From NCBI GenBank assembly GCA_937873425.1, contig CALMYE010000027.1, positions 1 through 54,496 on the forward strand: 54,496 bases of DNA. The letters run 5' to 3'. Shown here in pieces: positions 21,094 through 24,948 of the stretch (within the stretch, counting starts at the first letter, position 1; each line of letters opens with the position of its first letter). The notes beneath the pieces are model-generated. The model was given only the letters and a program-made list of their open reading frames with translations, was not told where the DNA came from and did not search any database. The position numbers and the translations under genes were made by a program. The DNA comes from an uncultured Sphingopyxis sp. (lineage in GTDB: Bacteria > Pseudomonadota > Alphaproteobacteria > Sphingomonadales > Sphingomonadaceae).

Positions 21094-21753
21094 TCAGAGA
21101 GTCAGCATCCCGCGCCGGCCCACGGCAACGAACGAACCCGCGAGCAGCGCCACCGCCAGAACCGTGACGATGTCGAGCGGATGGAGCGGCACATTCCAGC
21201 CAAGGGTATCGAGCATGCTCCACGGGATCAGGACGCCCGCGGCGATGAAGAAAGCCCAGGCACCGCCCTCTATGCCCATCTGGCGGTCGAGCTCGTCATA
21301 CACCCGCATCCACAGGATCGACGCGAGGCTGGCGGCCAGCAGGACCACCATGCCCGCCAGGGCGACGGCGGGCGGCACCGGCCCTTCGGCAAAGCCGGGC
21401 GCGCGCGCCAGAGCAAGCAGCATCAGCGCCAGTCCGAGCACCGCCATGTAGAGGAGCGAGACGAGCAGCTTCGGCCGCTGGTCGATCAACTCCTCGGCGT
21501 CCTCGACATTCAGCACCTTCGCCCCGGCGCGCGGCGCCGAAAGGCCGAGGCCGATCATCGCGGCGATCAGAAGATAGATCAGGCCGGTCGCCGCGAGCGC
21601 GACGCGCGAGCCGTCCATCGCGTCCAGCAGATCGTCGCCGCCCAGCCACAGCAGGGCGGTGACGCTGCCTCCGCCGATCACGGCGCCCCACAGCGCGCTG
21701 AGCAGGGTCTTCTTCCAGCCTCTCGCCGGTCGTGTCGCCGCCATGCCCATCAT
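21094..21753 (-). CDS. Multi-spanning membrane protein paired with an XRE regulator
   Basis: A 219-residue protein with about six membrane segments, including LLSALWGAVIGGGSVTALLWL, LAATGLIYLLIAAMIGLGL, LLYMAVLGLALMLLALA, VALAGMVVLLAASLASIL and a final LDIVTVLAVALLAGSFVAV. A conserved-looking loop, YDELDRQMGIEGGAWAF, precedes the last helices. ATG 21753 overlaps the regulator's TGA in ATGA, so the two are translated together. Pairs of a ~70-residue XRE regulator and such a membrane protein are frequent in sphingomonads and other proteobacteria; the role is not established. Confidence 0.75.
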   Translation of the reverse strand: MMGMAATRPARGWKKTLLSALWGAVIGGGSVTALLWLGGDDLLDAMDGSRVALAATGLIYLLIAAMIGLGLSAPRAGAKVLNVEDAEELIDQRPKLLVSLLYMAVLGLALMLLALARAPGFAEGPVPPAVALAGMVVLLAASLASILWMRVYDELDRQMGIEGGAWAFFIAAGVLIPWSMLDTLGWNVPLHPLDIVTVLAVALLAGSFVAVGRRGMLTL

Positions 21754-21962
21754 TGCTTCTCCGGTGTCCAATGGTCGATAAACAGCTCGCGCACCTCCAG
21801 CCCGAAAAGCCGGGCCATGCGCAGCGCGAGCGGCAGGCTGGGGTCGTATTTGTCGGTCTCGACCGCGTTGATCGTCTGCCGCGAAACGCCGAGCCGGCGC
21901 GCGAGTTCGCCCTGGCTCCAGCCCGCCGCCTCGCGATGATCGCGCACCCGGTTTTCCAACAT
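21750..21962 (-). CDS. Small XRE/Cro-type transcriptional regulator
   Basis: A 70-residue protein that is almost only a Cro/CI helix-turn-helix: REAAGWSQGELARRLGVSRQTINAVE, then LPLALRMARLFGLEVRELF. It resembles the YozG-like single-domain regulators. It heads a two-gene unit with the membrane protein, and its upstream region holds two copies of an imperfect palindrome, suggesting self-control. The IS1595-type element has inserted 59 bases upstream of its start and cut the distal palindrome. Confidence 0.9.
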   Translation of the reverse strand: MLENRVRDHREAAGWSQGELARRLGVSRQTINAVETDKYDPSLPLALRMARLFGLEVRELFIDHWTPEKQ

Positions 21963-21974
21963 TTGTCCCTTCGC

Positions 21975-22021
21975 CTGTCAAACACTCTTTACAGTCTGAT
22001 GCTTGGGCTGTCAAACATTCT
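21975..22021 (-). promoter_or_regulatory. Promoter and tandem operators of the XRE regulator, distal copy split by an insertion
   Basis: CTGTCAAACACTCTTTACAG (21975-21994) is an imperfect palindrome with half-site CTGTMAA. A second copy begins at 22008 and runs to 22021, where the mobile element starts; its remaining TTACAG lies beyond the target duplication at 24855-24860. Read leftward, TTGACA (22014-22009) and TAAAGA (21991-21986) with 17 bases between form a plausible promoter. Confidence 0.65.
22014..22021. repeat. Target-site duplication, left copy
   Basis: AACATTCT directly abuts the left end of the element at 22022 and is repeated exactly at 24847-24854. An 8-bp duplication is what IS1595-family transposition produces. 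Confidence 0.9.
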
Positions 22022-22085
22022 GGCGTTATTATACTTGACATACCCACGCAAATCTGCGAAAAACTCCCTATAAGGAGTTAATTCG

Positions 22086-23022
22086 ATGGTTTCCGCGCTT
22101 TCTGCCCCTCACTTCCACAACGAAGAAGCCGCCTTCGCTTATGTCGAAGCGCGTGTCTGGCCGGAAGGCCCTGTATGTCCGCATTGCGGCGGCTTGGAGC
22201 GTATCGGCAAGATGGGCGGCAAGTCCACCCGCCTCGGCCTCTACAAGTGCTACCAGTGCCGCAAGCCCTTCACTGTGCGGATCGGGACCATCTTCGAGAG
22301 CAGCCATGTCGCCCTGCATATTTGGTTGCAGGCAATGTATCTGATCGCGGGTAGCAAGAAGGGCATTTCGAGCAACCAGCTTCACCGCACTCTTGGCGTC
22401 ACCCTGAAAACCGCATGGTTCATGTCGCATCGCATCCGTGAAGCGATGAAGGATGACAGCATCGGCAATTTCGGGGCTGGCGGGGGCACTGTCGAGGCCG
22501 ACGAGACTTTCCTTGGCCGCGATCCCGACGCGGTAAAGACCCGTCATCCCTACCGCCATTTGAACAAGGTTGTCGCGCTGGTTGACCGCGCGACCGGTCG
22601 CTCGGCGTCGGTCGTTTTCACCGGCGACTTTTCTGCAACCAGTGTCGGCAAGATCGTCGCGGAATATGTCTCGCCGGAAGCGCATCTGATGACCGACGAA
22701 GCGCGTCACTATCGCACCATCGGTCGCGATTATGCGGCTCACAACAGCGTTGCCCACAATCGCGGCGAGTATGTCCGCAAGGGTGACGCGAACCCTGCAC
22801 ACCAACACCATCGAAGGCTATTTCAGTATCTTCAAGCGCGGGATGAAGGGCGTCTACCAGCACTGCCAGAAGAAGCATCTGCACCGCTATTTGGCGGAAT
22901 TTGACTTCCGCTATAGCAACCGTCAGGCTCTCGGCTGCAATGACGGTGACCGCGCCGACCGCCTGTTGGCGGGTGTCGTCGGCAAGCGGCTTACCTATGA
23001 AACGACTGGTCGAGGGGCCTAA
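22086..23022 (+). pseudogene. IS1595-family (ISXO2-like) transposase, frameshifted
   Basis: The first frame (22086 onward) has an N-terminal zinc ribbon (CPHCGG...CYQC), a helix-turn-helix region (ISSNQLHRTLGVTLKTAWFM), catalytic D139 in VEADETF and the second Asp in LMTDEARHY. Around 22793-22795 the homology moves to the +1 frame, which continues LHTNTIEGYFSIFKRGMKGVYQHC to a stop at 23022 and carries the third catalytic position (TIEG). Removing one C from the CCC there would give a continuous protein of about 311 residues, the usual family length. Translated as is, the frame-0 product would run on to 22904 without the third acidic residue. It may be a recent inactivating insertion, a sequencing error or, less likely, programmed frameshifting. 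A Shine-Dalgarno AAGGAG lies at 22072-22077. Confidence 0.85.
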
Positions 23023-23027
23023 GCGCC

Positions 23028-23186
23028 ATGCCAAAGAAGAAGGTTCAGGAGACGCAAGCCGAGCAAAGCGAGAGGTTCAAAAACGCCGTTCGCGAAATGA
23101 TCGACGCTGGCGAACTAAACCCCACAGAGGCCGATGAGGCCTTTGAGCGCCTATTGTCCAAAGCTAAGTCAACAAGGAAGCCTTGA
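23028..23186 (+). CDS. Small accessory protein of the IS1595-type element
   Basis: A 52-residue frame starting MPKKKVQETQAEQSERF at 23028, six bases after the transposase stop, and ending SKAKSTRKP. It is lysine-rich at both ends, helical in the middle, and contains DAGELNPTEADEAFERLL. I recall near-identical short proteins following IS1595-type transposases, but could not search. Its position, spacing and natural composition support a real gene. Its last 23 bases overlap the end of the convergent nuclease gene. Function is unknown; a DNA-binding or regulatory partner of the transposase is possible. Confidence 0.65.
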   Translation: MPKKKVQETQAEQSERFKNAVREMIDAGELNPTEADEAFERLLSKAKSTRKP

Positions 23187-24801
23187 CCGCTTTATAGGTG
23201 CTATCGCAGTAGGGGTGCGCCCATTGGGCGTTTTCCGTTGTTGCCAGTCCACCTTTAGATTTTTCTTCGACGTGATCTAGGTGCATTGACTTATTGTCGA
23301 TCTTGCCACCGCAAATGCCGCATGTAAGTGCGCCAGCGAGCGTATCAGAGATCACTTTGTGCTGTTTGGTCTCCGTCGAAAACTGCTTCGCGCTCGTCGA
23401 CAAAATTGGCTTCTCTTTGACCAAAATCTGGAATCGGTCATGTTCTTTTAAAAGCGCCTCAACTTGGTCAATGGATTTTCCGGCGGCCAATGAATCAAAG
23501 ACAAACCGATAATAGTCCCTGACTTGGCGATAGCCTTTTGCCATGCTGCCATATTTGACTGTCAGTTGATTGATATACATTTTCCGTTCGATCAGAAAAT
23601 CTTCGAAGTCCTTTCGAAACTGGCAAAATTTGTTCACCTCATTGGCGGCTTGCAAATCCCTTAGAAACTGCACCATTGCAAGAACGGCCGTTGGCTGATG
23701 GCGACCGTTGATTGAATAGAAATACACGGCGGGATGTAAGCCGAGCGATGAAGGGTGGTCGCCGGTGATAAGGCGAGCAAATTTGACGCTGTTGGCTATA
23801 GCCTTGATCGTGTCGTCCTCGTTAGGAGTTTCGTGCTCGCTTAGGAGCAATTTCTTTCCCTTGGATTTCGAACTGTCCACGACAGGAAAACCGTTTGCGA
23901 TGTTCACGAAATCGAAGATCAGCGGCAGGGTCTGCGAACCGTAACCGTGACCCGCTACAGGGAGGTCGATATTCTTGATCGGCTTATGCAAATCGGGCTT
24001 GTAAAGCAGATGATAAATCTCTCGCGCATTGTTTTCGATCTTCTCCCGCGCCTCGTCAGAGAATTGCGCCCAATATTGGTAACCTGTCGCGTTTCGAACG
24101 ATAGACCGAGAGACAATCGCGTTCGGCTTAAATCGGTCGTTGAGAATTTTTAGTTCGGTCGGGTCAATCACCGTCGCCTTTTGGTTGATGGTCAGAAACG
24201 CCTTCTCAGCCTTCTTTGAATCCGAGCCCTTAACCCACAACAGTGGAACTAGGGCTTGTGCCAATTGGCGACCCTTGATTTCCAAAGGGGGGTTAGTTCC
24301 TGGCCGCTCCAGTGCCGCCCGGATGTCCTTGTAACGCCCTACGCGGGCATCAAGAAGCTTGCGAGTTTTATCTGCCAACCGTCGCTGCTCAGCGGGGATG
24401 TTGTTGTCGTAGAACTCAACTGAAGTGTCTCCAGCACCGTAGTCGTCTTGAATCCACGCGATGATGGCGCTGACGCGATGAGCGCCGTCAATTACAAAGC
24501 TAAGGCGAGAGGGCGACTGCCAGCAAATTACAGCCGGAATTAGCTCTCCTTCAATGAAGGCTTCAACAAAGTCACAGATGGTATCCGGGGTCCAAGCAGC
24601 AGTCTCGCGTTGGAAATCCGGCTTCCGCAAGGTCGAGAAAAACAATTCCCCCTTGCGTAGGTCGGTTTCCGACATTGCCGCTTTGCCTTGCGCGCCAGCA
24701 TCCGGGCCATCGACCGCAAGAAAATCCTCTCGCGGAATCAAAGCATCCAAGTTGACTGCACTTGCCATGTATCGCCCATCCTCCCGGTCAGTGGTGCTCA
24801 T
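23164..24801 (-). CDS. DUF262 and HNH endonuclease fusion, passenger of the mobile element
   Basis: A 545-residue protein. The N-terminal DUF262 (ParB/sulfiredoxin-like) domain has its two hallmarks: PDFQRETAAWTPDTICDFV with FIEGELIPAVICW (60-95), and DGAHR at 105-109, the nucleotide-binding DGQQR-type motif. A long helical middle follows. The C-terminus is an HNH nuclease with C494 and C497, LDH (H510), N524, H529 and C532. DUF262 proteins with such nucleases include GmrSD and related type IV restriction enzymes against modified phage DNA; a defence role here is inferred. GC content is clearly lower than in neighbours. ATG 24801 is used; ATG 24768 is an alternative. It lies inside the transposon's inverted repeats, transcribed toward the transposase. 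Confidence 0.88.
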   Translation of the reverse strand: MSTTDREDGRYMASAVNLDALIPREDFLAVDGPDAGAQGKAAMSETDLRKGELFFSTLRKPDFQRETAAWTPDTICDFVEAFIEGELIPAVICWQSPSRLSFVIDGAHRVSAIIAWIQDDYGAGDTSVEFYDNNIPAEQRRLADKTRKLLDARVGRYKDIRAALERPGTNPPLEIKGRQLAQALVPLLWVKGSDSKKAEKAFLTINQKATVIDPTELKILNDRFKPNAIVSRSIVRNATGYQYWAQFSDEAREKIENNAREIYHLLYKPDLHKPIKNIDLPVAGHGYGSQTLPLIFDFVNIANGFPVVDSSKSKGKKLLLSEHETPNEDDTIKAIANSVKFARLITGDHPSSLGLHPAVYFYSINGRHQPTAVLAMVQFLRDLQAANEVNKFCQFRKDFEDFLIERKMYINQLTVKYGSMAKGYRQVRDYYRFVFDSLAAGKSIDQVEALLKEHDRFQILVKEKPILSTSAKQFSTETKQHKVISDTLAGALTCGICGGKIDNKSMHLDHVEEKSKGGLATTENAQWAHPYCDSTYKAVKASLLT

Positions 24802-24846
24802 TTAGCACCCCCGATCTGGCTTGGGTATGGCAAATATAATAACGCC

Positions 24847-24854
24847 AACATTCT
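24847..24854. repeat. Target-site duplication, right copy
   Basis: AACATTCT immediately after the right inverted repeat, identical to 22014-22021. Continuing TTACAG completes the interrupted operator of the XRE regulator. Confidence 0.9.
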
Positions 24855-24948
24855 TTACAGGTCCGGTCCGCGGCATCACGACACGGACTTGCCGCGCGGC
24901 CGTTCAGGCGGCACAAGATGCGCATCCCCCTTGTTCCGGAGTGCTTTC

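Follow-up and report, generated by a model that had tools for sequence, protein, structure and literature searches.

The window analyzed here is the whole 54,496-nucleotide contig CALMYE010000027.1 of an uncultured Sphingopyxis sp. (assembly GCA_937873425.1), and it contains a 2,825-bp insertion sequence (IS) element of the IS1595 family at positions 22022 to 24846. Direct reading found an exact 8-bp target-site duplication (TSD), AACATTCT, on the left (22014 to 22021) and on the right (24847 to 24854). Repeat comparison and pattern search placed 28-bp terminal inverted repeats (TIRs) just inside the duplication, the left one, which holds TTGACA, at 22022 to 22049 on the plus strand and the right one at 24819 to 24846 on the minus strand. 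A pattern built from both TIRs matched the 54-kb window at these two sites and at no other when up to 3 mismatches were allowed, and it gave no match in 100 shuffles. An initial annotation of the sequence had noted TIRs of about 28 bp with an exact 8-bp duplication, as the two approaches confirmed, and its reading would have failed had the ends not recurred; TIRs with the 8-bp target duplication of the IS1595 family are present in the window element and likewise in its relatives, many of which are bounded by similar TIRs and exact TSDs. GC content was 57.5% in the left part of the element and 51% in its nuclease gene, below the 67% of the window, and the element occurs only once in its genome. 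Visual inspection showed TTGAC in many left TIRs, with a TATATT-like hexamer about 17 bp farther on, which together might serve as a transposase promoter; TTGAC is absent from many right TIRs.

To look for an empty site, the left flank was compared to 80 genomes of the same genus, and 19 fetched loci were aligned with the joined flanks of the window. At two loci (L159 in genome G293 and L160 in G843) the alignment crossed the junction, CTGTCAAACACTCTTTACAG was unbroken, and the 8-mer was present in a single copy (AACACTCT). Five loci (L150, L152, L153, L155, and L157) had both flanks separated by roughly 0.6 to 0.8 kb of different DNA, which is not long enough to be the window element. The remaining 12 have other genes downstream and thus matched the left flank only. 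Upstream of a small helix-turn-helix gene (21750 to 21962) lie two tandem 20-bp operator-like repeats (CTGTCAAACAYTCTTTACAG; window positions 21976 to 22021 and 24847 to 24860), the second of which was split by the insertion, and regulation of this gene may have been altered. That the nuclease gene is not resident at this locus, as first supposed, is upheld by the uninterrupted site in two same-genus relatives and by the presence of the nuclease in 3 of the 80 same-genus genomes, its own included. We conclude that the interval from 22022 to 24846 is, close to certainly, a transposon.

The element encodes, on its plus strand, an ISXO2-like DDE transposase with an N-terminal zinc ribbon. Translation and comparison to Pfam and NCBIfam indicated that the N-terminal part (22086 to 22904, frame 1) covers the zinc ribbon and the larger part of the DDE domain, with the last stretch of the frame out of register, and that the C-terminal part, including the NTIEGYF stretch, lies in another frame (22783 to 23022). 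The two pieces matched PF12762 with 54 and 50 bits, the zinc ribbon matched PF12760 with 44 bits, and the N-terminal piece scored 128 bits against NF033547, for which the cut-off is 75. The DDE domain is split over the two frames, with profile positions 4 to 114 in one and 104 to 152 in the other. Thus, the IS1595-type family assignment of the initial annotation held, but the break in the transposase frame had been overlooked in it. The single intact transposase frame that an autonomous element needs was not found in the window copy; its same-genus relatives in genomes G384, G793, and G780 each have one open frame of 310 to 311 amino acids. Because of the broken frame, the window copy is probably unable to move itself, and we consider the element to be probably not autonomous: it either can no longer move or needs a transposase supplied in trans. 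The one other IS1595-type transposase of the same genome (G000:C73:28901-29551) is 29% identical to that of the window. When the same-genus elements L188 and L189 were compared by eye to window positions 22440 to 22790, the N- and C-terminal parts of the transposases were near-identical and the catalytic core was far more diverged, a mosaic that suggests recombination inside the transposase gene too. In a separate case, the transposase of L098, compared to that of L095, was broken by an insert of about 2.9 kb, the frames of which resemble an IS21-type pair by eye.

The cargo gene lies on the minus strand (23164 to 24801) and, by reading frame, Pfam, alignment, and structure model, encodes a 545-amino-acid DUF262 (GmrSD_N)-HNH nuclease; an alternative start at 24768 has its own GGGAGG. 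The frame is intact, the PDFQR, DGAHR, and HNH residues are present, and both domains exceed Pfam cut-offs, in agreement with the complete nuclease with PxFQR, DGAHR, and HNH motifs that had been annotated. The DUF262 domain is of the GmrS type (PF03235, 43.5 bits; cut-off, 33.2), and no match to GmrD/DUF1524 (PF07510) was obtained from the nuclease at E values of up to 0.1, a PF01844 HNH domain being found there instead. The DGQQR motif of GmrSD was likewise not found, its position being occupied by DGAHR in the window and by DGAHR, DGGHR, or DGSHR in 13 of 13 aligned rows. The best structural matches of the nuclease model were BrxU, SspE, ParB/Noc, and DndI, those to BrxU, SspE, and DndI being modest. 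PADLOC returned no full-length system match for the window nuclease, its best hits being short and weak, and phrog_29172 was a full-length sequence family match (E value, 1.9e-112). In trees, the window nuclease grouped with that of a viral contig (L126; 57 to 58% identity), at which neither an IS1595 transposase nor a TIR pair was seen, and the two genes differ most at third codon positions (0.65, versus 0.33 and 0.26). One could imagine that the element is a dead relic, with transposase and nuclease functions both lost in this genome, as the broken transposase frame and the single copy would allow. We consider a relic unlikely, as the nuclease frame and motifs are intact and misassembly of the genome, which is in 337 contigs, could account for the break in the transposase.

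A left block of about 80% identity or more was found in only 4 of the 80 same-genus genomes, and the four elements concerned share both ends and carry four cargos. DNA comparison indicated that the left module (window 22022 to 23124, plus strand) is shared with the G384 element at 87% (element positions 1 to 1103), with the G793 element at 82% (to about 1130), and with the G780 element at 80% (to about 1125 to 1130). The right module (24797 to 24846, minus strand) consists of the TIR and GATCGGGGGTGCTAAATG, is kept at 90 to 94% in all three, and includes an ATG at 24799 to 24801 that is in frame with the cargo. The G384 element (L072; TSD AGAGCTCT) has the closest transposase (90% identity) and matches the window at 90% over the last 50 bp, with nothing comparable in between the modules; its 292-amino-acid cargo is DUF3800-like by eye (YFDDSGT) and had no Pfam match at 0.01. 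The G793 element matches at 94% over the last 49 bp and also carries a nuclease, one that is only 38% identical to that of the window, the two genes still matching in short stretches at about 68% DNA identity. The G780 element (TSD CAATATTT; 92% in the right block) encodes a 301-amino-acid protein in which an RNPLMH motif was noted and which matched phrog_32483, a family without functional annotation. Comparison of elements with and without the nuclease, as proposed with the initial annotation, therefore gave the same kind of ends, with the nuclease in some and other cargos elsewhere. That different cargos lie between the same ends argues, on comparative grounds, that the passenger gene is not needed for transposition, and cargo has probably been swapped between elements by recombination in the common left and right blocks.

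The in-frame ATG of the right module was also found in other elements. A start codon at right-end position 46 was present in seven elements (the window, L072, L076, L081, L082, L188, and L189), lay within GGRGGTGCTARRTG in six of the seven (a looser form in L082), and opened a cargo frame of 281 to 545 amino acids in six, the frame of L081 stopping after 45 amino acids. A looser version of the start motif occurred in 11 of 46 elements, 8 of which gave a frame of at least 100 amino acids, and thus the right-end start is a property of one subgroup.

Recurrence of the pairing was surveyed in 397 genomes of the family, 80 of the genus, and 385 of the class, and elements were chosen partly by their nuclease. 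The first survey scanned 70 loci, window included, of which 66 had a transposase and 4 did not; 41 were kept by hand, and the losses were L067, a near copy of L066, and loci without an exact TSD plus a good TIR. As a control for bounding, 225 pseudo-placements were scored in a narrower search than that used for the elements; 219 scored at most 14 of 20 TIR matches and 6 scored 16 to 19, some of which may be real because real elements on the other strand were not excluded from the control. One element (L055) was retained at a TIR score of 14, which 3 of the 225 controls also reached.

The nuclease was found in 9 of the 397 family genomes (E value up to 0.001), two of them with short, weak matches. 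Six other matches were long, and two of these, in G362 and G186, lay beside an IS1595 transposase within TIRs and exact 8-bp TSDs (CAAAGTTG and CGTCTTGT). Further nuclease-bearing elements were found on a viral contig reached via its transposase (L045; TSD GTTCGTTT; 5,055 bp, with further reading frames), in the class search (L122 in G762; TSD CGCGAGGG), and on two viral contigs reached via nuclease alignment (L134, TSD ATCGCGAG; L131, 9-bp TSD CGGATTGCC). Moreover, one of the other two nuclease-containing genomes of the genus was G793, which has the nuclease within an IS1595 element of its own (L188; TSD ACAACGCC). With the window, eight bounded IS1595 elements carry a DUF262-HNH nuclease, which answers in the affirmative the question, posed with the initial annotation, of whether related nucleases lie between IS1595 ends. 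In all eight, the nuclease is at the right end on the strand opposite the transposase and retains FQRET and DGAHR; the HNH finger reads GH in L077 and L134 and DH in the others, and the frame starts 44 to 125 bp from the right end in seven, no usable start being found by script in L134. The nuclease family is otherwise rare in the genus and class samples, with matches in 3 of 384 other class-sample genomes at E values up to 1e-20, and one of the three (G511) had it in two fragments that were left out of trees. No IS1595 transposase was present in the fetched stretch around the long relatives in G324, G370, G238, and G164, around plasmid and phage loci L112 to L117, or around L002, nor in that of 18 of 21 viral nuclease loci, several of which are cut by contig ends.

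Phylogenetic trees argued against a single origin of the pairing. On the nuclease tree (31 sequences, eight of them IS-borne), the IS label requires 6 changes, all 6 forced by well-supported branches, and a single clade of IS-borne nucleases was rejected by the approximately unbiased (AU) test with (31 rows; P value, 2e-7) and without (30 rows; P value, 5e-34) L188. In a tree of 44 transposases, in which the window is represented by its N-terminal 236 amino acids only, the seven nuclease-bearing ones then known require 6 changes, at least 5 of them forced, and a single clade was again rejected (AU P value, 3e-35; 44 rows); in such counts, gain and loss of the label are not distinguishable. As both trees reject a single origin, the pairing of nuclease and transposase arose or was exchanged repeatedly. 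The 6 changes in the nuclease tree compare to a shuffled mean of about 7 (93 to 105 of 500 shuffles were as low), and 162 to 176 of 500 shuffles were as low for the transposase tree. The labels are thus scattered about as much as shuffled ones, and the trees show repeated pairing rather than clustering. Taken alone, the window copy is compatible with a nuclease trapped once by chance, the pairing being an accident of insertion beside a defense gene. Recurrence refutes such an accident: the eight bounded pairings have different TSDs and involve different nuclease lineages, and IS1595 elements make up about 0.03% of the family genomes by rough arithmetic (about 130 transposase matches at E values up to 1e-30, times a median of 2.6 kb).

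Recurrence at the same element end could also mean that the nuclease serves the transposon, nicking or cutting DNA for transposition, homing, or removal of empty sites, and not host defense. HNH nucleases act in homing elements. We regard such a role as very improbable, given that elements with near-identical ends and transposase carry unrelated genes and no nuclease, that the nuclease is absent from 37 of the 41 first-survey elements, and that the same 18 of 21 viral nuclease loci, together with ten further loci, have no IS1595 transposase in the fetched stretch. Among six fetched contexts of phage or plasmid nuclease relatives, two (one phage and one plasmid) have an EcoRII restriction-modification system or a CBASS-like set next to the gene.

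Cargo other than the nuclease was compared to Pfam for 40 proteins from 32 of the 41 first-survey elements and to PADLOC for 20 of the 40. Pfam matches above the curated cut-off were obtained in 15 of the 32 elements: DUF3800 in five, PIN in three, GmrSD_N in three (one of which, L086, had been fetched because of its nuclease), and PemK, HNH_5, an M78/IrrE peptidase, and a D12 methyltransferase in one each. PADLOC matched the cargo of three bounded IS1595 elements to PD-Lambda-5 A and B (L104 in G083; E values, 3e-178 and 2e-116), BstA (L074 in G241; 9e-116), and PDC-S46 (L091 in G261; 5e-255). PD-Lambda-5, which originates from a phage-defense screen, and BstA are anti-phage systems, and PDC entries are candidate systems. 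Together, the two resources gave an informative match in 17 of 32 elements, the other cargos being unmatched. An R-x4-H motif of the HEPN type was noted in cargo of 11 of 46 elements, selected by eye from 18 flagged by script and read as a motif only.

Between transposase and nuclease, the window element encodes a 52-amino-acid protein (23028 to 23186, plus strand), identified by translation, profile search, and a structure model with two helices (pLDDT score, 79). A profile built from 15 seed proteins found a member in 33 of 44 bounded elements; 29 of the 44 had contributed no seed, and 18 of these were among the hits. Every member is encoded on the same strand as the transposase. The other 11 elements correspond exactly to one branch of the transposase tree (11 rows; support, 100/99), and a search of 447 kb of flanking DNA gave one hit, in L074, the flank of which has a second IS1595 transposase. 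In some elements other genes lie between the transposase and the small gene, and L101 and L102 have both blocks in common at about 89 to 90% and differ in the intervening part. The conserved protein of about 50 amino acids is a second gene common to a large IS1595 group, and it marks that group of transposases; we take it to belong to the transposition module. Its distribution also bears on the possibility that the cargos act not against viruses but as addiction modules or toxins, stabilizing the element or its host plasmids, as the PemK, PIN, and HEPN-like motifs among them might indicate. We find this improbable: two cargos are matched almost end to end by the PD-Lambda-5 and BstA models, and the small protein beside the nuclease also occurs in elements with other cargo and is therefore not a dedicated antitoxin.

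By comparison of ends and contents, the window element is one of a recurrent set within an element family whose cargo is exchangeable. The shared plan is a left end with the transposase and the small conserved gene, a variable cargo gene, and a short right end with the inverted repeat, which in the subgroup of the window also carries a start codon that is in frame with the cargo and has a ribosome-binding-like stretch. We propose, with a probability of roughly 75%, that it is a passenger-carrying IS1595 transposon that spreads a one-gene anti-phage or anti-plasmid defense by way of an exchangeable nuclease cargo. A defense function of the nuclease is likely. Upon meeting invading, perhaps modified, DNA, the ParB-fold DUF262 domain would bind and hydrolyze nucleotide and then activate the HNH domain, which would cut or nick DNA by analogy to BrxU and SspE, and the element could thereby spread the defense. 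A broader proposal, which we hold tentatively and at somewhat less than even odds, is that a large IS1595 clade serves specifically as a modular vehicle for immunity systems of one or two genes, with a fixed left block (transposase and usually the small helper protein), a fixed right block (with the translation start in one subgroup), and defense genes that move into and out of prophages, plasmids, and chromosomes by exchange between the blocks. If so, IS-sized elements of 2 to 3.5 kb would move single defense genes within and between genomes with no need of an island, and IS1595 right ends would offer a direct route to new one-gene immune systems (DUF3800, HEPN-like, and DUF262-HNH) outside defense islands.

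Passenger genes as such have precedent in the family. Passages of PMC11891212 describe tIS elements that carry passenger genes, among them ISNha5, an IS1595-family element whose passenger is a transcription regulator (Siguier et al. 2009 is cited there). The window element resembles IS1595-family tIS in transposase family, in TIRs with a TSD, and in a passenger between the ends, and differs in its defense-type nuclease cargo, in cargo that varies between closely similar elements of like ends, and in the conserved second protein of about 50 amino acids. A literature search for IS1595 with defense cargo gave, among the matches listed and with subscription papers little covered, none that reports it in its title or the start of its abstract, and the sections consulted of PMC7371123, PMC7986276, and PMC11092175 held nothing further on IS1595 cargo.

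Like the type IV enzymes GmrSD and BrxU, the latter its best, if modest, structural match, the window nuclease joins DUF262 (GmrSD_N) and an HNH-type nuclease in one chain, but it has DGAHR in place of DGQQR and a classical HNH domain (PF01844) with CxxC..HxxC in place of a DUF1524 match. It shares a DUF262 domain plus nuclease with the phosphorothioate-sensing effectors SspE and DndI, again with modest structural matches, but no ssp or dnd genes lie between the element ends. Its own full-length family, phrog_29172, is listed just as a phage protein without assigned function. Known carriers of defense genes include prophages, plasmids, integrative elements, and large transposons. Tn7-like elements are larger and have several transposition genes, whereas the window element has one transposase, one small protein, and one cargo gene. 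The use of a transposon as a vehicle for defense genes is nevertheless common to both; defense cargo of Tn7-like transposons is described in PMC8649781. That ends of one kind enclose the nuclease in some elements and other defense-like genes in others suggests a minimal vehicle for bacterial immunity whose cargo can be swapped.
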